Part shown: positions 3 through 13,335 of the stretch, piece after piece
Position numbering within the stretch: the first letter of the stretch is position 1
Layout of the letters: each line of letters opens with the position of its first letter
Program-made: the position numbers and the translations under genes
The notes under the pieces: generated by a model
What the model was told of the DNA's origin: nothing
Seen by the model: only the letters and a program-made list of their open reading frames with translations
The model's database searches: none
NCBI GenBank assembly: GCA_025201845.1
Contig: MU603990.1
Span: 65,248-78,582, forward strand
Source: Martensiomyces pterosporus
Taxonomy: Eukaryota > Kickxellomycota > Kickxellomycetes > Kickxellales > Kickxellaceae
Reading direction: 5' to 3'
Length of the DNA stretch: 13,335 nucleotides

Positions 3-203
3 TTCCGCACCACCCCCATGGACAAGGAGGAAACCGTGCCAGCACCATTGGCCCCAAAGAACAGGAGGAACAGAAAGAACACCAAGAAGAGGGAATCTGC
101 CGCCGCCCCTCCAGCAAGCAACGCCGAGGTGAGCGCAGAAATCCACGCCCTGCGAGAGCAGGTAGCCAATGTCGCTGAGCTTTTTCATCAGCACCATTTT
201 TGA
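3..203 (+). pseudogene. Retrotransposon gag C-terminal fragment (copy A), cut by the window edge
   Basis: The frame is open from the left edge and ends at TGA 201-203. It encodes a lysine/arginine-rich stretch (NRRNRKNTKKRESAAAPPAS) and then a short amphipathic helix ending in HQHHF. Copies B and C in this window end the same way (ITQHHF, DQYHF), so these are three copies of one element. A basic linker plus a coiled-coil-like tail just before a protease frame fits the end of a Gag protein of an LTR retrotransposon. No CCHC knuckle is visible. The upstream part lies outside the window. The start is unknown; the ATG at 18 is probably internal. Assignment to Gag rests on its position before the protease, not on a domain match. 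Confidence 0.6.
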
Positions 204-474
204 GGCGGCCGGGGGCCGTGAGTGTTAACAATACATTGATTGACAACACAAACGACCGTCCGGCCATTGCCAAGGGCAAAACAATGGTGCAAGCTATCAG
301 CGGAAGCAACCACAACGGAAGCGTCGCGACGGTAACGGCCGAGATTTCGGGCCAGCTCGTGGAAGCAGTGGTGGACACTGGTGCCGGCGCCGCATTTGTC
401 GCAGAGGCACTCTGCCAAGAGCTTGGAATCGATGTCGACCAGAGTCTGGCCACCCAGTACACCACAGTGAATCT
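200..474 (+). pseudogene. Retropepsin-like protease fragment (copy A)
   Basis: The frame is -1 relative to the gag fragment and overlaps its stop codon. It carries EISGQLVEAVVDTGAGAAFV, which holds the D-T-G-A active-site loop of retropepsins with the hydrophobic strand before it and the usual A-F-V after it. Homology with copy B ends near 472, where the sequence turns into the spacer of an inverted repeat. Everything downstream in this frame is antisense of copy B, so the protease is truncated after about 90 residues and no reverse transcriptase follows. This is a dead fragment of a Ty3-like or related LTR element; the clade cannot be fixed from a protease alone. Confidence 0.7.
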
Positions 475-1473: not shown

Positions 1474-3102
1474 CTATGCTGCCTCAGAGTTCATTACACG
1501 CAGGCTGAGAAGGTGTGGAAACCTGTCTCCATGCTCGGCAACAAAGGTTCTCATACCAGGGACATACAAGCCAGGGACAAACAAGAATTCCAGAGATGGC
1601 GCTAGTAGCACAGAGCAGCGCACCACACTCAAAACAGCGGTCAATGGCCTCTGTCCGTACGCATAAATCCACAGCTCCTTCACATTTGTCGTAATAGATG
1701 GCACACGTGCCGAGTCTTCTCCAAGTATCTCCTGAAGGCTGGATTCAGTGTCGTTCCCATCTTCGTATATATTTCCCACCTGGAACTTCCGTAGCCTTGG
1801 CAGCTGAGTGACAACCCTGGCAAACGAAGACAAGTAAACGTTTGCAACGATGTTGAGCTCTTGAAGCATGACCCAGTTGATTTGCTTGACAATAAACGTG
1901 GGCAGCGCGGCGCCATCTACTCTCAGTTCGACGTATCTGACAGCGGATTCGCAGCTGAACAAGTCGCAAGAAAACCGGTCAAAGTCGCCATGTTCCTTGT
2001 GCGCAATCCCGCCGATTTGGATCCTCATGCACGAAATATCCAGCAGGACCCGAAGATCGAAGGACTTGACAGATTGGAGCGACCCAGAGACGTCAACAGA
2101 CTGCAGGGGCGATTTAACAAACATCGAGTAGAACCCACTGTCGTCGTGTGGGCTGTTGCGGATTTCCAGAAATCTCAGCTCTGGGAAATATAATTTATGA
2201 AATTGATGGCTAGGCACAGCATTTCCAGCCTCATTGCTGTTCATGCTGCTAGACTCGCGTTCACTTGCCGCCGGAAGTCGAAATACAAGTGTCAAGTGGC
2301 GTAGCTTTGTGAATAAAACGTATCCAGGAGTGCTGTTGATGAACGGTCGCCAAGAATAGCCGTGCGGGACATTTTGTAGTGACAAGACCTGGAGCGATGG
2401 CGCCAGCACATATGGCAGCTTGTATGTTGCCTCGGAACCCAGTCTGATCTGTAAGTTGGCCAGATGCGACGAGAACGATGGCCAGTCGAAGGAAATTGGC
2501 ACCTCCTTGCAGACAAGTGAGTGCAGCTGACAAATATATCTACTAGTCAGTGCGCTGGATAGGAGCCCGGAGAAGCTGGATGGGTAGCCAAAGGACATAT
2601 TCAAACAACCAATGTTTGGAGCGTGTCGCGCAAAGTAGTCTGTTAGCCGTGCAGCAAACGCCTCGCTATCACTCTTGCCTGAGCTAGGGATGGTGCTGTC
2701 CATAGGGTCGCTTTGAAAGTAACCCGTGATTTCGAGCTTGCACGCCTTCACCCACCGCACTGAACCAAACCCGAGAGTATCCAGGTCATGGATAATATCT
2801 GCAAGGCCGTGTGGAGACTCAACAAGCTGTATTTTTAACCTTTTAGCCACACTGCTGCAACGTTGGGAAACGAAGAGACTGATGTTTGACAACGGGGTGT
2901 AGCAAGCCCCTTTGAAGCAGTACTCCAAGTACACTGCGTTGTACACGTATTTAAACATATACTCTCTCCAAACACGGCAGACTGAAGCGAGTGGCAGCAG
3001 CTGTCTGAACTCGCTGATGCTGTCTTCCTCTTTCAATCCATGGTAAAAGTACGCGAATATCTCTTGCAGTATATACACGCACAAATTAGTAATGTGCGCC
3101 AT
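1474..3102 (-). CDS. F-box-like/leucine-rich-repeat-like protein 1
   Basis: Single-exon frame of 542 residues from ATG 3102 (G at -3, G at +4) to TAG 1474. The N-terminus has an F-box-like pattern: LCVYILQEIFAYF, a short linker, then LLPLASVCRVWREYMFKYVY, with the leucine/proline and cysteine-arginine-x-tryptophan positions typical of F-boxes. The rest is about 450 residues of irregular leucine-rich segments (for example LRFLEIRNSP, SLEFLFVPGLYV), as expected of a solenoid substrate-binding domain. F-box proteins usually recruit substrates to an SCF ubiquitin ligase through Skp1; whether this divergent box binds Skp1 is unknown. It is paralogous to gene 2 at 6155: both begin MAHI, share FYSMF-x-x-SPLQ in the middle and FPHL near the end. 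No signal peptide or membrane segment is seen, and no internal stop. Confidence 0.8.
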   Translation of the reverse strand: MAHITNLCVYILQEIFAYFYHGLKEEDSISEFRQLLPLASVCRVWREYMFKYVYNAVYLEYCFKGACYTPLSNISLFVSQRCSSVAKRLKIQLVESPHGLADIIHDLDTLGFGSVRWVKACKLEITGYFQSDPMDSTIPSSGKSDSEAFAARLTDYFARHAPNIGCLNMSFGYPSSFSGLLSSALTSRYICQLHSLVCKEVPISFDWPSFSSHLANLQIRLGSEATYKLPYVLAPSLQVLSLQNVPHGYSWRPFINSTPGYVLFTKLRHLTLVFRLPAASERESSSMNSNEAGNAVPSHQFHKLYFPELRFLEIRNSPHDDSGFYSMFVKSPLQSVDVSGSLQSVKSFDLRVLLDISCMRIQIGGIAHKEHGDFDRFSCDLFSCESAVRYVELRVDGAALPTFIVKQINWVMLQELNIVANVYLSSFARVVTQLPRLRKFQVGNIYEDGNDTESSLQEILGEDSARVPSITTNVKELWIYAYGQRPLTAVLSVVRCSVLLAPSLEFLFVPGLYVPGMRTFVAEHGDRFPHLLSLRVMNSEAA

Positions 3103-3300: not shown

Positions 3301-3466
3301 GTAATGTCCCCTAGACAGCTGCAGAGGACAGCGTGTGCTTGCCTAGTTTGTCGCTCCGGTGACATTGTTTCTTGTGCTCCTTTGCTGACCCCGCTACGGG
3401 GGCGCTTCTAGTTTCTTGACTCTTAGGTTTACTGGAAATGCATCGGCACCATCACTCACATCACAC
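3301..3466 (+). mobile_element. Short LINE-tail repeat, copy R1
   Basis: The sequence begins AATGTCCCCTAGACA and ends GGAAATGCATCGGCACCATC plus a CA-rich tail. It aligns along its whole length with copy R3 (12671-12827, opposite strand) and with R2 (12213-12320). The diagnostic core TGACCCCGCTACGGGGGCGC corresponds to the GCCGGCCCTGCTATGGGGGC-type core of R3. The 3' half is also homologous to the end of the LINE at 11300. It is diverged (stops in every frame), and I see no flanking duplication. Confidence 0.65.
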
Positions 3467-3559: not shown

Positions 3560-3725
3560 GTTAGCAACTGTAAGGGTCACATCTGGGAATGCAGTGGTGA
3601 GAGCGTATGAGTGCTCACTAGTGCGCAGCAAGCTACAGATTGATAAGGAGCTTTGCTCCCTTATCCCACCCGCTGGTTCTTCTAGCTTGTCTTTTAGTCA
3701 AGTCCATTAGAAAGTACATAGGCTC
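3560..3725 (+). mobile_element. LINE 3'-end fragment, copy L2, internally deleted
   Basis: The plus-strand translation RAYECSLVRSKLQIDKELCS matches the minus-strand LINE at about 11430-11500 (SLVRNKLQIDRELC). Over 18 aligned codons I count 7 purely synonymous third-position changes, so the parent was protein-coding here. About 75 bp are missing between CCGCTGG and the tail, shifting the frame. The tail then reads AAAGTACATAGGCTC, the LINE terminus. The stop of the AAA/nuclease gene lies only about 20 bp downstream on the other strand. Confidence 0.6.
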
Positions 3726-6154: not shown

Positions 6155-7936
6155 ATGGCGCACATAAAGGACCTGCACGTGAACATCCTACAGAAGGTAT
6201 TCGCGTACTTCCACGGCAGGTTAATGTTGTATTCACCAAGTCTTAACGAGTTTATGCAGCTGCTACCTCCTGCTGCAGTCTGTCGTGCTTGGAGGGAGTG
6301 CATGCTTCCATATGTCTATCATACAGCATATCTCGACTACCATATCAAAGAAACAAATGAGGGCAGCAAGACCAAACAGGTCAAGTGCAAGTGGAAGTCA
6401 AACATAGACCTTATTGTCTCACAACGCCTCAGTAGCGCAACCAGAGAACTGCGGGTAAAGTCGTTCTGCTGCTCAGTCAGTCCTTCATATATACATCGTG
6501 CCCTGGATGCTTTTGGTTTTAACTCAACCCACTGGAGAGCGGTTAATGTACTAGTTATCAAAATGGTCTTTGAAAGAGATATTGCTCGCTATAGTACAGG
6601 TGGTTATATTGGCAGCGAAACGTCAGCAACACAGTTTACCGAGTACTTTGGACAGCACCTTCCACATATCAGTGATTTGTCTATAGATTATTTTCTTCTA
6701 TCATATATCCCTAGTGACATATGGCCTAGGCTGGTCAACCTGTATGCTAGCCAGTTACACGCGCTCATTTGCAGTGCCACCCCTATCACCTTCGATTGCC
6801 GCTCATTTTCGCCTAGACTCAGACATTTACATGTTAGTATTGGCTCTGGAGTATCGAATAGGCTTCCGCAACTGCCAGCTTCACCACTAGAGAAGCTGGA
6901 GTTGTTTGATATCCCACACAATTTCGCTTGGTGGACGTTTATTGGTACAACGCCTGGTTTCATCGAGTTTACAAATCTGCGTGAACTTAGGCTTGAATTT
7001 CGCCATCCACCGGGGAAGGCAGTGGAGCAAAGCAACTCCACCAGACAAGTGCAAGCGAGTAAGGCTTCATTCAACATTGGTTGTTGCAAGTTATTCTTTC
7101 CAAAGCCGAAGGAATCCAACAGACAAGTGAATACATCGGCTCCATCATCGAAGGAATCCAACAGACAAGTGCGCACGAGTACGGTTTCACTCGATATTGG
7201 CTGTTACAAAATGCTCTTTCCAAAGTTGAAACAGCTAATTATAGTAAACAGTCCGTACAATGATGGTGAATTTTATTCAATGTTTGCCCACTCGCCTCTC
7301 CAACATGTGGAGATTCGCGGTTCGTTCAAATCAGTCCATCACGTGTATCCTCGTAATCTGTTTAATGCGGCAAATGTGCGTTTCGGCATTCAACGTATTG
7401 CTCCTGATGACTACAAAAATTATCCTGATTTTTATCACAGACTGCTTGGTACACCCTCTAATGCAAGAACTGCTACATTGCATACATATAATAACAGAGT
7501 GCCTTTGCCTATACCCAGCAAAATTGAATGGATAAACTTAGTGCATCTATATCTTTATGCTGACATACATTTTGCTTCAGTTATTCAAGTCGTGATTCAG
7601 ATGCCAAAACTACGCACGCTTATAGTTGGCTGCGTTGTCGATAAGATCAACGAAGCTGGTTCAACCCTGCAAGCGATCCTCGAAGACAAGTTAACACAAA
7701 CGCCGTCTATCTCTACTACTCTCAAGAGCATTTCTATTTATTTGTGGTTTGACTCGTCACGGGTATTCAGTCTGGATGTTACGTGCTACCTGACCATTCT
7801 TGTTCATTCGCTGGTCAAGGTTGCTGTACCTAGCATGTATGTTTCTGATATCGAGGAGTTTGCTGCCCACCATGCTAACGCGTTTCCCCATCTGCGCAAT
7901 ATTGAAGTGCGTGGCTCTACTCCGTGGTATGACTGA
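6155..7936 (+). CDS. F-box-like/leucine-rich-repeat-like protein 2
   Basis: Single-exon frame of 593 residues; ATG at 6155 in context TCAACATGG and stop TGA at 7934. The N-terminal F-box-like segment reads MAHIKDLHVNILQKVFAYF, then LLPPAAVCRAWRECMLPYVY. The remainder is a leucine-rich solenoid-like region ending in FPHLRNIEVRG. It is clearly paralogous to gene 1 at 3102, with the same MAHI start, FYSMF-x-x-SPLQ block and C-terminal FPHL block. Its base composition is more AT-rich than gene 3 or the AAA/nuclease gene. It differs from gene 1 by a 40-residue expansion at about residues 297-362: a 26-residue duplication plus a 14-residue segment derived from a mobile-element tail. Partner and substrate are unknown; a Skp1-dependent ubiquitin-ligase adaptor role is family-level inference. 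Confidence 0.82.
   Translation: MAHIKDLHVNILQKVFAYFHGRLMLYSPSLNEFMQLLPPAAVCRAWRECMLPYVYHTAYLDYHIKETNEGSKTKQVKCKWKSNIDLIVSQRLSSATRELRVKSFCCSVSPSYIHRALDAFGFNSTHWRAVNVLVIKMVFERDIARYSTGGYIGSETSATQFTEYFGQHLPHISDLSIDYFLLSYIPSDIWPRLVNLYASQLHALICSATPITFDCRSFSPRLRHLHVSIGSGVSNRLPQLPASPLEKLELFDIPHNFAWWTFIGTTPGFIEFTNLRELRLEFRHPPGKAVEQSNSTRQVQASKASFNIGCCKLFFPKPKESNRQVNTSAPSSKESNRQVRTSTVSLDIGCYKMLFPKLKQLIIVNSPYNDGEFYSMFAHSPLQHVEIRGSFKSVHHVYPRNLFNAANVRFGIQRIAPDDYKNYPDFYHRLLGTPSNARTATLHTYNNRVPLPIPSKIEWINLVHLYLYADIHFASVIQVVIQMPKLRTLIVGCVVDKINEAGSTLQAILEDKLTQTPSISTTLKSISIYLWFDSSRVFSLDVTCYLTILVHSLVKVAVPSMYVSDIEEFAAHHANAFPHLRNIEVRGSTPWYD
7043..7240 (+). repeat. 78-bp in-frame duplication inside F-box-like gene 2, split by a later insertion
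   Basis: Unit 1 starts at 7043 and encodes RQVQASKASFNIGCCKLFFP. Unit 2 starts at 7163 and encodes RQVRTSTVSLDIGCYKMLFP. The present period is 120 bp. Removing the 42-bp insertion at 7130-7171 gives 78 bp (26 codons). Paralogue gene 1 has only one equivalent (HKLYFPEL), so the duplication is specific to gene 2. The units have diverged, so it is older than the insertion. Confidence 0.75.
7107..7171 (+). mobile_element. 20-bp LINE-tail sliver (R4) flanked by 23-bp direct repeats inside a coding sequence
   Basis: Positions 7130-7149 read AATACATCGGCTCCATCATC. This is identical to the 3' end of repeat R3 and of the LINE at about 11300. The sliver is bracketed by perfect direct repeats at 7107-7129 and 7149-7171 (the single C at 7149 can be counted with either the sliver or the repeat). 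Sliver plus one repeat copy is 42 bp, so it adds 14 codons (residues 326-339, NTSAPSSKESNRQV) without breaking the frame. Read as a retroelement insertion truncated almost to its tail, with a target-site duplication. Confidence 0.7.
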
Positions 7937-11225: not shown

Positions 11226-12130
11226 CTATCCCTTCTTGCGGTCATGTTGAACGTGTCCTTCTCTTCGTTGTTTGAGCGGGCGAGGCAGATCACTGAAACC
11301 GCTGATGATGGAGCCGATGTATTTTCCAATGAACTTAGCTAAGAGCCAAGAAACCAGAAGAGTCCCCATAGCAGGGTCGGCTAAGGAGTACAAGAAGTCA
11401 TGTCGCCACATAATGTTGCGGCCGGTAGCAGGTTGGATAGGGGGACAGAGCTCTCGGTCTATTTGCAGCTTGTTGCGCACTAGCGATCAGTAGTACGCGT
11501 TTGCCACCGCGTTTCTGAACGTGACCCTACATCTGTGAGTGAAATCTTCTGTGAAGGTTTGATTTAGTGGGCGGTTGTATTGCCGATAGTCCCGTTCGAG
11601 GGCCTGTTTGAAGTTGTCGATCCAGTGCTGGTCCAGGATGAGATGTCCATGGCGCTCTGCAGTAAAGCGAGCACTCATGTCATCCGCTGCCGGGGTCGCG
11701 CTGGTGCTGGGAGGCGGCGGCTCTGCCTCCTGTTCGCCGTGAGCGCAGGTAAGCATGTGCACCACTGACTCTGTGATCTGCTCACACCGCGGGCAGAATC
11801 GCATCTCGCGGGCATCTGGGTATGCTGCCGGGTACCATGCAGTGTTGCGCTTCATCGTCGGCAGGGAAACGCACCGCTCGTTCAATAGTTGAATCCTACA
11901 ATTATAACCACTCATACCAACCGACCCCACGAATGGGCAAGTAAATCAGCTCTCTCTCTCTCTCTCTCGCCACTTCGCAGCACAGATCTTGTTATTAAAT
12001 GCCGGCTCTCTTTTCAGTTCCCGCACAAAATGCCTCCATGTTTTTGTGTTCCATTCTAATGTGCGCCCAGCATTTATCAATCATTGTGAAGTTGCTAATA
12101 TCCTGAGTTGCAGTACGCTCGGTAGCAAGG
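11226..12130 (-). mobile_element. 3'-end fragment of a non-LTR retrotransposon (LINE), inactivated, copy L1
   Basis: The minus-strand frame can be followed from about 12130 to 11226 through several stops. It reads TLEWNTKTWRHFVRELKREP and ICAAKWRERERES, then a stop next to a (GA)n run, then RIQLLNERCVSLPTMKRNTA. Next comes the cysteine/histidine knuckle CPRCEQITESVVHMLTC (C-x2-C-x8-H-x4-C), which typically sits after the reverse transcriptase of LINEs. After NAYY there is an in-frame TGA (11487-11489), and the same frame continues with SLVRNKLQIDRELCP and ADPAMGTLLVSW to KYIGSI. Copies L2, R1, R2 and R3 share this tail. The reverse transcriptase catalytic core is not in the window. The 3' terminus is probably near 11300, at GGCTCCATCATC. 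Confidence 0.75.
11950..11968. repeat. (CT)9 microsatellite inside LINE L1
   Basis: A pure CT run lies within the LINE reading frame, as a GA run encoding alternating R-E on the minus strand. It is followed directly by an in-frame TGA, so slippage here may have contributed to decay of the LINE frame. Confidence 0.85.
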
Positions 12131-12212
12131 GGTCACAGCAGTGCCTAGGTAATTTTGTTCACGGGCTCCTCTGGATGGCATGGGTTTTCATGTGCAATGG
12201 TTATCTCTCATG

Positions 12213-12320
12213 GATGTCCTCTGGACACCTGTGCGAGACAGCATGCATTTGCTTAGTTTCCAGTCACTCTGGCGACATGGTTTCTTATGCTCATTGGAGA
12301 TACATCGGCTCCATCACCAT
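12213..12320 (+). mobile_element. Short LINE-tail repeat, copy R2, internally deleted
   Basis: The copy begins GATGTCCTCTGGACACC and reads DSMHLLSFQSLWRHGFLC, matching R3 (DSVCLLSFLSLWGHGFLC). It then lacks about 45 bp that R3 has and resumes with TTGGAGATACATCGGCTCC and CATCACCAT. The 5' boundary is at the same ATGTCC as in R1 and R3. No clear target duplication. Confidence 0.7.
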
Positions 12321-12430
12321 TTAACCACGTCAAGTTTAGAGTCACCCCGAACATCGTTATGTTTAGAGAGCCCAAGCGGTACTCTACACCCACTGTCGTT
12401 TGGAGAAACCCGCTGCTCAAAGAAATCTGA
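12320..12430 (+). pseudogene. 36-codon coding-like relic of unknown gene
   Basis: Directly after repeat R2 a frame reads FNHVKFRVTPNIVMFREP, continues KRYSTPTVVWRNPLLKEI, and stops at TGA 12428. The codons are balanced and the composition is that of a folded protein rather than of random frames. There is no ATG of its own. I do not recognise the family. It could be the end of a gene whose upstream part was displaced by R2, or chance. Confidence 0.35.
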
Positions 12431-12489
12431 GCCAGGGTGTAGCCGTGAGCAGGGTTGCTCAGTTTAATTCAGGCAGCAGAGCGGTTCAC

Positions 12490-12642
12490 CTAGTCCTTGG
12501 GTTTCACAACAGGGTGGTTTTCCAGGTGGAGTGATGCACACACGACTGCGGTCTGAGCCAGCTCGCCTTTTCTTCGCTTTCTATACTCCTCATTTCCGGT
12601 TATCCACATCTTGTTAGGGATCCATGTCCCCAATATATCCAT
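12490..12642 (-). CDS. Small 50-residue frame or last-exon relic
   Basis: Minus-strand ATG at 12642 to TAG at 12490. It begins MDILGTWIPNKMWITGNEEY, has a basic RKRRKGELAQ stretch, and ends HPVVKPKD. Composition is plausible for a real protein. A CAG acceptor-like site lies about 10 nt upstream of the ATG (minus strand GTAAGCAG/GATGG), so it may instead be a terminal exon. The R3 element inserted just upstream. Family not recognised. It faces the relic at 12320-12430 tail to tail. Confidence 0.35.
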   Translation of the reverse strand: MDILGTWIPNKMWITGNEEYRKRRKGELAQTAVVCASLHLENHPVVKPKD

Positions 12643-12647
12643 CCGGC

Positions 12648-12850
12648 CATCCTGCTTACACTAATCACTTCTTGATGATGATGGAGCCGATGTATTTCCA
12701 GTAAACTTAGAGCTAAGAAACTAGAGGGCCCCCATAGCAGGGCCGGCTAAGAAGCACAGGAAACCATGTCCCCAGAGTGACAGGAAACTAAGCAGGCAAA
12801 CGCTGTCCTGCACGGTTGTCCATGGGACATCTTGCTTACACTAATCACTT
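12648..12850 (-). mobile_element. Short LINE-tail repeat R3 with 23-bp target-site duplication
   Basis: The element occupies 12671-12827 (157 bp, minus orientation) between direct repeats 12648-12670 and 12828-12850. The repeats match at 22 of 23 positions (core TGCTTACACTAATCACTT). In element orientation it starts near ATGTCCCATGGACAACC and ends GGCTCCATCATCATCAAG, a short ATC-repeat tail. A stop-interrupted frame reads DSVCLLSFLSLWGHGFLC and LAGPAMGAL, homologous to the LINE L1 tail (MWRHDFLYSLADPAMGTL). This is the best-preserved copy of the short family. Confidence 0.8.
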
Positions 12851-13088
12851 TATCACTCCTTGCCCCTCTTTCACCATTTAAGACCAGCCCTTGCCAAATC
12901 TTTCCTGGCTTTCTTCAGGACAGCTCTCATCTTCGCTTAACAGGCCTCACAGCCACCAACTCTTCAAGAGCCATTGCACATTTACACTCAATTCTGTATT
13001 CGCCATTTGAATTTCTTTGCGGGGCTCTTACCACATCTTGCTGCTATAGTGTCCGTTGTCTCTGCTCAATTTCTTCTATTCTTGCTAG
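12851..13088. other. Gap upstream of the right-edge gene
   Basis: Pyrimidine-rich on the plus strand (CTCCTTGCCCCTCTTTCACC, and TTTCTTCTATTCTTGC just before 13089), compatible with a fungal promoter and leader. The plus frame 12832-13158 is rejected as chance. No other gene seen. Confidence 0.35.
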
Positions 13089-13335
13089 ATGGCCAGTACT
13101 ACTGAGTTCTCAAGAAGCGAGTGCTGCAAAGCACTACTGTTTGTATCCTTTCAATTGATGATTGGTGATATAAACATGCGCCAGTGTGTTGCGCGAGGTC
13201 TGAGAATAATGGATAAATGCAATATGGATTCTGATGACTTGGAGAAAACTTGTCAAGTTGAGTTTGACAGTTTGATGCAGTGGGCAAAGGATTACAAGCG
13301 GGACGAAAGGATAGATGATTCATCAGACTCTTCAG
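13089..13335 (+). CDS. 5' part of an unknown protein, runs off the right edge
   Basis: From ATG 13089 the frame is open through the last base (82 codons). It starts MASTTEFSRSECCKALLFVS, contains MIGDINMRQCVARGLRIMDK, and continues with an acidic, helix-rich part (CNMDSDDLEKTCQVEF, QWAKDYKRDERIDDSSDSS). Alternative in-frame starts are 13158 and 13176. The even amino-acid composition and the pyrimidine-rich leader before the ATG favour a real gene. I do not recognise the family. No signal peptide or membrane segment is seen in the visible part, and an intron cannot be excluded. Confidence 0.5.
   Translation, partial: MASTTEFSRSECCKALLFVSFQLMIGDINMRQCVARGLRIMDKCNMDSDDLEKTCQVEFDSLMQWAKDYKRDERIDDSSDSS

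Follow-up and report, generated by a model that had tools for sequence, protein, structure and literature searches.

Tail-only LINE insertions with target duplications in Martensiomyces pterosporus, one of which probably added 14 in-frame codons to an F-box-like LRR gene

A 42-bp in-frame addition to an F-box-like gene of Martensiomyces pterosporus is most probably the footprint of one LINE retrotransposition event, a reading to which we assign a probability of about 0.88. The window, by which we mean the whole stretch of 13,335 bp that was analysed, is C62:65248-78582 of the M. pterosporus genome (17.38 Mb, 216 contigs), and its features are listed in Table 1. A preliminary description of this DNA had reported a perfect 23-bp direct repeat around a 20-bp LINE tail, and its coordinates, lengths and arithmetic were right. 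Positions 7130-7148 plus the C that opens the second repeat read AATACATCGGCTCCATCATC, whose reverse complement is found without mismatch at 11304-11323 and 12677-12696 in the window; the 20-mer is therefore, as claimed, the 3' end of LINE-tail repeats found elsewhere in this stretch. The net gain of 42 bp corresponds to 14 in-frame codons, the tail 20-mer being translated as NTSAPS, and the intact 593-aa host frame confirms that the addition left the gene open.

Table 1. Coordinates of the host gene, the insertion and the LINE-related sequences in the window
Feature	Position	Strand	Basis
Host gene, LRR-fold protein of a large F-box-like family	6155..7936	+	ORF, 593 codons/aa
Paralogue of the host gene (542 aa), lacking the 40 extra residues (L052)	1474..3102	-	ORF, alignment
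Older private tandem duplication, copy 1 (78-bp period after subtracting 42 bp)	7037..7110	+	77% identity to copy 2
Older private tandem duplication, copy 2	7157..7230	+	80-81% match to paralogue DNA
Target-site duplication copy 1, 23 bp, CGAAGGAATCCAACAGACAAGTG	7107..7129	+	exact direct repeat
LINE 3' tail fragment, 19 bp (20 bp with the C at 7149 common to repeat 2)	7130..7148	+	sequence match
Target-site duplication copy 2, 23 bp, 100% identical to copy 1	7149..7171	+	exact direct repeat
Truncated source-LINE copy: C-terminal coding part and 3' tail	11304..11863	-	90.7%/460 bp, 87.4%/103 bp to C41 element
ORF of LINE C-terminus with presumed Cys/His motif (CPRCEQ..VHMLTC)	11487..11930	-	91%/126 aa to C41 element
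Second LINE 3'-tail copy	12677..12828	-	80%/157 columns
Third LINE 3'-tail copy, tail diverged (one mismatch)	12120..12320	+	12120-12297 at 79%
Fourth LINE 3'-tail copy, diverged	3349..3454	+	83.6%/110 columns
Small LINE-related piece	3603..3673	+	78.9%/71 bp

The host gene was compared with its relatives in the same genome. Its family gave 59 genome matches, pieces counted separately, and related frames were drawn from the loci of 30 of these and from 5 further loci. Nineteen frames, 49-56% identical to the host gene where aligned, were used; 16 span the insertion region and 3 stop short of it. All 16 region-spanning relatives lack 40 residues present in the host gene, and these 40 residues derive from two events, a 78-bp tandem duplication and the 42-bp insertion, which together give the spacing of 120 bp between the tandem-duplication copies. 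The 42-bp insertion sits at the junction of this older duplication, which the preliminary description had not recorded. As the target duplication spans the copy junction and is nevertheless perfect, the 42-bp insertion would be the younger of the two.

The proposal that paralogues should reveal the insertion was borne out in part. The extra residues are missing from every spanning relative (16/16) and the site is uninterrupted in the paralogues, but these are without the 78-bp duplication as well as the 42 bp (120 bp less in all), and no allele short of exactly 42 bp was seen among them. Neither a 20-mer without its flanking repeat nor a variable number of 42-bp units was observed at the window locus in the one assembly. 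An extremely 5'-truncated LINE insertion with a target duplication, as had been suggested, is supported by the identity of the insert with the LINE 3' terminus, by these 16 relatives, and by 14 further insertions of the same kind elsewhere in the genome.

We also assessed the protein encoded by the host gene. The Pfam F-box profile PF12937 scored 12.6 bits with the host gene and 16.0 bits with its neighbour at 1474-3102, both below the curated cut-off of 24.3 bits. A structure model (mean pLDDT 72.9, built from a 10-sequence alignment) matched the folds of COI1, TIR1, FBXL17 and FBXL2, together with many non-F-box LRR proteins, and the LRR substrate-binding fold of FBXL/COI1/TIR1 proteins is present in the model. 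The earlier designation as an F-box-like gene was thus weak in its F-box part, while the LRR fold and the FBXL-type fold matches spoke for it; judged from the model, the LRR fold is the better supported of the two, and F-box-like LRR protein is a fair but unproven label. A protein search with the window host gene returned 6,327 candidates, none of them significant. Residues 287-342 have pLDDT values below 50 and are predicted to be disordered, and the 42-bp insertion falls among them; the 14 added codons may have been tolerated because this loop is disordered.

The 17.4-Mb genome contains 23 occurrences of the tail 20-mer, against none in the reversed control, which excludes a chance match. 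At 21 of the 23 places homology extends over 100 bp upstream or as far as the compared sequence reaches, the exceptions being the window insertion and L021. The sequence common to the copies ends ...GGCTCCATCATC, and some copies carry additional ATC units. Going by its sequence, the source repeat is a LINE family. In the copy on contig C41, a frame with Cys/His and HMLTC motifs lies approximately 0.4-0.8 kb upstream of the tail; further upstream is a 432-aa RT frame, the end of which is approximately 1.7 kb from the tail. This frame gave a partial RVT_1 match (profile positions 93-202 of 205, E 3.4e-12), and in the PDB it is related to R2-type RT proteins. Further 5', where the endonuclease domain would be expected, the C41 element reads N in the stretch compared; the copy looks degraded and not like an intact source. 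Relative to it, the window copy at 11304-11863 carries a deletion. The open frame at 11487-11930, which is without a Pfam match, contains CPRCEQ..VHMLTC, which we take to be the Cys/His motif of the LINE C-terminus. A plasmid search with the LINE tail gave no match.

The genome was searched for the 17-nt tail, allowing 2 mismatches at most, then for shorter versions of the tail, and the flanks of the matches were examined. The 17-nt search returned 72 matches, compared with 5 for the reversed control. Among 70 distinct tail matches, the tail is directly flanked by a perfect or near-perfect direct repeat in 16, and these represent 15 events, two being adjacent units at one place. Their flanking-repeat scores range from 13 to 33, against a shuffle maximum of 9 (11 across any of the 70). 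Of the other 54, 45 are longer copies and one, L091, is an ambiguous case of tail on tail; the remaining 8 lack both homology and a convincing repeat, the best score among them being 9 (L075, plus strand), and their number is near the 5 of the reversed control. Searching the coding sequences for the tail 20-mer together with flanking repeats had been recommended beforehand; the genome-wide tail searches described here recovered 14 tail-only insertions beyond the window locus.

The 15 tail-only sites, each defined by a tail and its target duplication, share a common design. Their target duplications measure 13-25 bp and are mutually unrelated, nine being exact and six having one mismatch. Tail lengths, read by hand, were 14 nt (one site), 15 nt (five), 18 nt (three), 19 nt (one), 20 nt (three), 24 nt (one) and 28 nt (one). 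The (ATC)n end of the tail abuts the second target copy at 15 of 15 sites. One or two bases are common to tail and target at some junctions, and 1-3 unmatched bases are present at the 5' junction in L089, L101 and L061. No endonuclease or target motif was found around the 15 sites. Every short copy with the exact 17-nt tail carries a target duplication (7/7), whereas among longer copies with a definable 5' end only 6 of 31 have duplications of 15-23 bp within 2 bp of the homology boundary, a size range like that of the tail-only sites, and 25 do not. Short and long copies may therefore differ in age or in pathway.

The tail-only insertions also form a separate size class. They span 14-28 nt, the longer copies start at 54 nt (L066) and continue from 79 nt upwards, and none was found at 29-53 nt. 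A uniform density derived from 30 longer copies (5' ends at 79-450 nt) predicts 1.2 copies at 14-28 nt, where 15 were found (Poisson P = 4e-12), and on this basis we separate the class from the longer copies. Two values of 105 nt (L014 and L016) were left out because an internal deletion, rather than a 5' end, lies behind them; with both kept, 1.3 copies are expected and P is 1e-11. A zone of rare truncation ends at 29-78 nt is only suggestive, with 1 end observed (L066) against 4.0 expected (P = 0.09; 4.3 and P = 0.07 with L014 and L016).

The 3' end of the LINE was then considered as a possible source of this size class. Its last 107 nt have a mean column identity of 80% in an alignment of 41 of the 45 longer copies. 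In the predicted fold AGCCGA closes with UCGGCU of the tail, enclosing two inner hairpins and an unpaired AAAUACA linker. This closing stem is predicted in full in four of five single sequences and in part in the fifth; 96% of cells pair, and the fold is better than slid versions of itself. It was clearly better than shuffles in only 2 of the 5 single sequences, and covariation showed no excess over shuffles. The 5' ends of 13 of the 15 micro-inserts, at 14-20 nt, coincide with the predicted linker or the edge of the closing stem, a correspondence that was noticed post hoc.

The sequence of events that we propose for the window locus begins with the LINE endonuclease, which would nick the host gene, after which the (ATC)n end of the LINE RNA would serve as the starting point for target-primed reverse transcription. 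The cDNA would stop growing after approximately 20 nt; the second strand would still be cleaved, 23 bp away, and repair completed, leaving a target duplication and a tail-only insert. The halt point would be fixed if the RT copies the tail and the 3' strand of the predicted stem (UCGGCU) and then meets the hairpin. More generally, although at slightly under even odds, this LINE would have a second, discrete product class, in which the RT stops in a fixed zone of 14-28 nt at the base of the 3' UTR structure and integration is nonetheless completed, so that the genome is sown with cassettes of 33-48 bp. Within the same tentative reading the class would arise at a sizeable share of integrations, through failed escape from initiation; the counts behind it are 15 tail-only events against 56 longer copies (15/71, about a fifth).

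The LINE enzyme might alternatively have used as its template a 3' RNA fragment of approximately 14-28 nt, cut in the single-stranded AAAUACA linker. Such a template would account for the discrete class at 14-28 nt with none found at 29-53, and for the clustering of 5' ends in the predicted unpaired, A/U-rich linker. However, the linker belongs to a predicted fold that covariation does not support, and an abort at the base of the hairpin predicts identical ends. We consider this route unlikely, at perhaps one chance in four, and prefer a structure-limited abort as the putative sub-mechanism.

Break repair was weighed against retrotransposition with several controls. Patch- or filler-type repair of breaks gives tandem duplications with filler of varied origin, and yields the same repeat-filler-repeat shape as seen here; a staggered double-strand break, its ends filled in and a short copied filler joined without LINE machinery, would resemble our sites, and the missing target motif at the 15 sites agrees with this. 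In our case, however, the filler is one LINE terminus: the insert is the 3' end of that LINE at 15/15 sites (all found by that tail), with its (ATC)n end at the second target copy. Shorter or weaker tails, namely the exact 11-mer GCTCCATCATC and 13-mers with one mismatch, had a target duplication at 0 of 34 loci, and tails below 14 nt with a duplication were accordingly not found. These 34 loci (19 in one set and 15 in another) consist of 8 one-mismatch 13-mers, from the first 100 of 128, and 11 + 15 exact 11-mers, the remaining exact 11-mers falling among the 70 tail matches; L124, one of 20 regions examined for short tails, had no match.

An internal 17-mer probe from the 3' part of the LINE gave 46 genome matches, 45 of which belong to copies with a tail. 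Thirty-two lie 55-65 bp from tail matches, and 11 of the 12 others examined run into a tail, sometimes a diverged one. The match at C37:69150 is 92 bp from the L091 tail, that at C62:68634 is the window copy at 3349-3454, and the single match without a tail, on C6, is due to chance; isolated internal LINE fragments were absent from the 46 matches. This control argues against random break-repair filler. Because no duplication accompanied the 34 weaker matches and the internal probe was never found apart from the tail, the tail-only insertions look like retrotransposition products rather than random filler.

A scan for near-perfect direct repeats 6-60 bp apart in 180 kb of non-redundant DNA detected 15 pairs, of which 13 enclose a LINE tail; as many of the scanned loci had been chosen for their tail, this indicates a low background and not an unbiased rate. 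The cut-off omits L102 (13 bp), and L075 is also absent from the pairs. The two pairs without a tail are L044, which is of low complexity, and L036, a 14-bp pair around an unrelated, AAG-rich insert of 20 bp. The latter favours break repair to the extent that a repeat-insert-repeat shape can evidently arise otherwise. Taken with the tail-enclosing pairs and the controls above, we regard filler joined without LINE machinery as improbable.

Still less probable is an insertion that was initially longer, of LINE or SINE origin, and from which an internal deletion later removed the 5' part. Long copies that have suffered such deletions do exist (window 11304-11863), but this account needs 15 separate deletions, every one of them stopping at the target-duplication junction and sparing 14-28 nt, while no copy with 29-53 nt was found. 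Least credible is a coding minisatellite, in which slippage made a partial 42-bp repeat that resembles the LINE tail by chance: the older 78-bp tandem duplication in the host gene and the repeated 45-bp units of the L075 micro-insert lend it some colour, but repetition covers just 23 of the 42 bp and the remaining 19 are identical to the LINE terminus, so that an ordinary tandem repeat at the window locus was rejected, and the 20-mer of that terminus is found 23 times genome-wide against 0 in the control, with the same arrangement at 14 other sites.

We next assessed what the tail-only insertions would mean for genes. All three forward frames of the 20-nt tail are free of stop codons, and the total gain is divisible by 3 at 9 of the 15 sites (one-sided P = 0.03), although this bias is only a hint because several of the sites are probably non-coding. 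As far as open frames can tell, the window case is the only firmly coding tail-only insertion. L089 is an MFS transporter gene (Pfam MFS_1) with a tail-only insertion at the gene start, where the 42 bp added on balance keep the reading frame of an upstream ATG; the public model of the protein (P0001) starts at an ATG inside the second target copy, and the insert may therefore belong to the 5' UTR. No Pfam family above cut-off was found for the open frames around L063, L101, L064 and L075, nor for the N-terminal piece of L089. One further micro-insertion lies 43 bp beyond the end of homology to a relative's coding sequence. On contig C68 (L075) the micro-insert is present as two successive units of 45 bp, and tail scars can on this evidence grow into tandem repeats.

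It had also been proposed that such micro-insertions lengthen coding sequences of the F-box-like family. Micro-insertions within 1 kb of a family match numbered 2 of 15 against 0.09 expected, and longer LINE places 7 of 61 against 0.38 expected, the 61 including near-identical places on C62 and L091. Outside the window the figures were 1 of 14 against 0.08 expected (P = 0.08) for micro-insertions and 5 of 57 against 0.36 expected (P = 3.5e-5) for longer places. LINE copies are thus enriched near the family, which lends some footing to a link between the element and these genes, but lengthening of a coding sequence was seen in one gene only.

Insertions reduced to a tail have been described in human genes. 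In excerpts of PMC3219598, tail-only LINE-1 and Alu insertions are, like the one proposed for the window locus, products of LINE machinery truncated to the tail and located in coding sequence; one of them, a poly(T) insertion in an NF1 exon, was interpreted by its authors as a possibly severely truncated Alu or L1. The human case is disease-causing and has a homopolymer A/T tail (60-178 bp among the retrotransposon insertions studied there), whereas the insert in M. pterosporus is a unique sequence of 14-28 nt that terminates in (ATC)n, recurs within one genome and is in frame at the window locus. In the stringent-type LINEs UnaL2 and ZfL2 the enzyme binds a 3' stem-loop and the RNA ends in short repeats, according to excerpts of PMC4176376 and PMC3747384. 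A conserved, possibly structured 3' end and a terminal short repeat, here (ATC)n, would be common to these elements and the fungal LINE; the 3' structure of the latter is, in contrast, a prediction to which covariation adds no support, and binding by its enzyme is putative. The excerpts of those two papers describe no discrete tail-only class for UnaL2 or ZfL2.

MGL, a LINE of the rice blast fungus, forms template-switch chimaeras with switch sites next to possible hairpins (PMC2104539, in excerpt). Like the element studied here it is a fungal LINE with 5'-truncated copies, its target duplications measuring 10-20 bp; it differs in that its chimaeras contain LINE parts of 230-5461 nt fused to another RNA, and the excerpt describes no tail-only class. 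Excerpts of PMC13009371 and PMC13174262 likewise contain no description of a discrete tail-only class. A non-exhaustive survey of titles and abstract openings on short LINE insertions, structured tails and fungi revealed no discrete class of non-homopolymer tails of 14-28 nt. Within the literature so sampled, tail-only insertions in human genes are already known and the discrete size class is the new part.

If our reading is true, a cDNA of approximately 15-20 nt is enough for LINE integration to be completed, and second-strand cleavage and joining need not await a long first strand. If the 3' RNA structure sets the size class, the step from initiation to elongation of a LINE RT would become testable from genome sequence. 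Short in-frame insertions with flanking repeats that are met in coding genes may be retrotransposon scars below the length that masking programs recognise. Cassettes of 33-48 bp would then be able to lengthen proteins and to seed tandem repeats, as at L075, and would be likely to escape repeat annotation.

The host gene, which encodes a leucine-rich-repeat-fold protein of the F-box-like family, carries a private tandem duplication of 78 bp that predates the LINE scar. In a genome search, the first copy of this duplication also matched the paralogue L006 at 81% identity, and because of this match gene conversion between paralogues may have taken place at the duplication. The coordinates of this and the other repeats are collected in the table below.

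Repeats in the window and on its contig, C62
Feature	Coordinates	Identity
Tandem duplication, 78 bp, private to host gene	window 7037-7110 and 7157-7230	77%
Inverted repeat, 332 bp	window 142-473 and 557-888	91%
Inverted duplication, large, close to the end of C62	C62:78000-83100 and 97875-101718	97.6-99.9% over 2.3-2.6 kb

The 332-bp inverted repeat was identified as a fragment of a gag-type aspartyl protease (Pfam Asp_protease_2, E 3.7e-6) and probably consists of LTR element remnants arranged head-to-head. Window positions 12059-13333 match part of the large C62 inverted duplication at 92%.

A micro-insertion of the LINE tail was also found at the start of a gene for an MFS transporter (L089 and L143, C25:59700-61103). 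The start ATG of the public model falls within the second target copy, and the two target copies differ by a single base, at the codon of that ATG. At locus L075 (C68), the micro-insert is itself repeated in tandem as 45-bp units, with 24 nt of tail and the target copy GACTTGATGCGTGATGGCTGC; this array is a minisatellite grown from a LINE scar.

At L091 (C37:69058), a diverged tail (...CCGTCATCACCAGGTTTACTGGAAATACATCGG...) is followed without a gap by a second tail; one LINE end may have been inserted into another or templated beside it. At position 1294 of locus L036, a 20-bp AAG-rich insert lies between perfect 14-bp direct repeats; it differs from the tail of this LINE and represents either a different type of short insertion or chance.

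Genome-wide, F-box-like family matches were located less than 1 kb from LINE copies at 9 of 76 places, compared to approximately 0.5 expected (contigs named for this proximity: C62, C114, C169, C31, C1, C119 and C28). When the window's own places were left out, 6 of 71 LINE copies were within 1 kb of a family match. LINE copies thus neighbour F-box-like family matches in excess of expectation.
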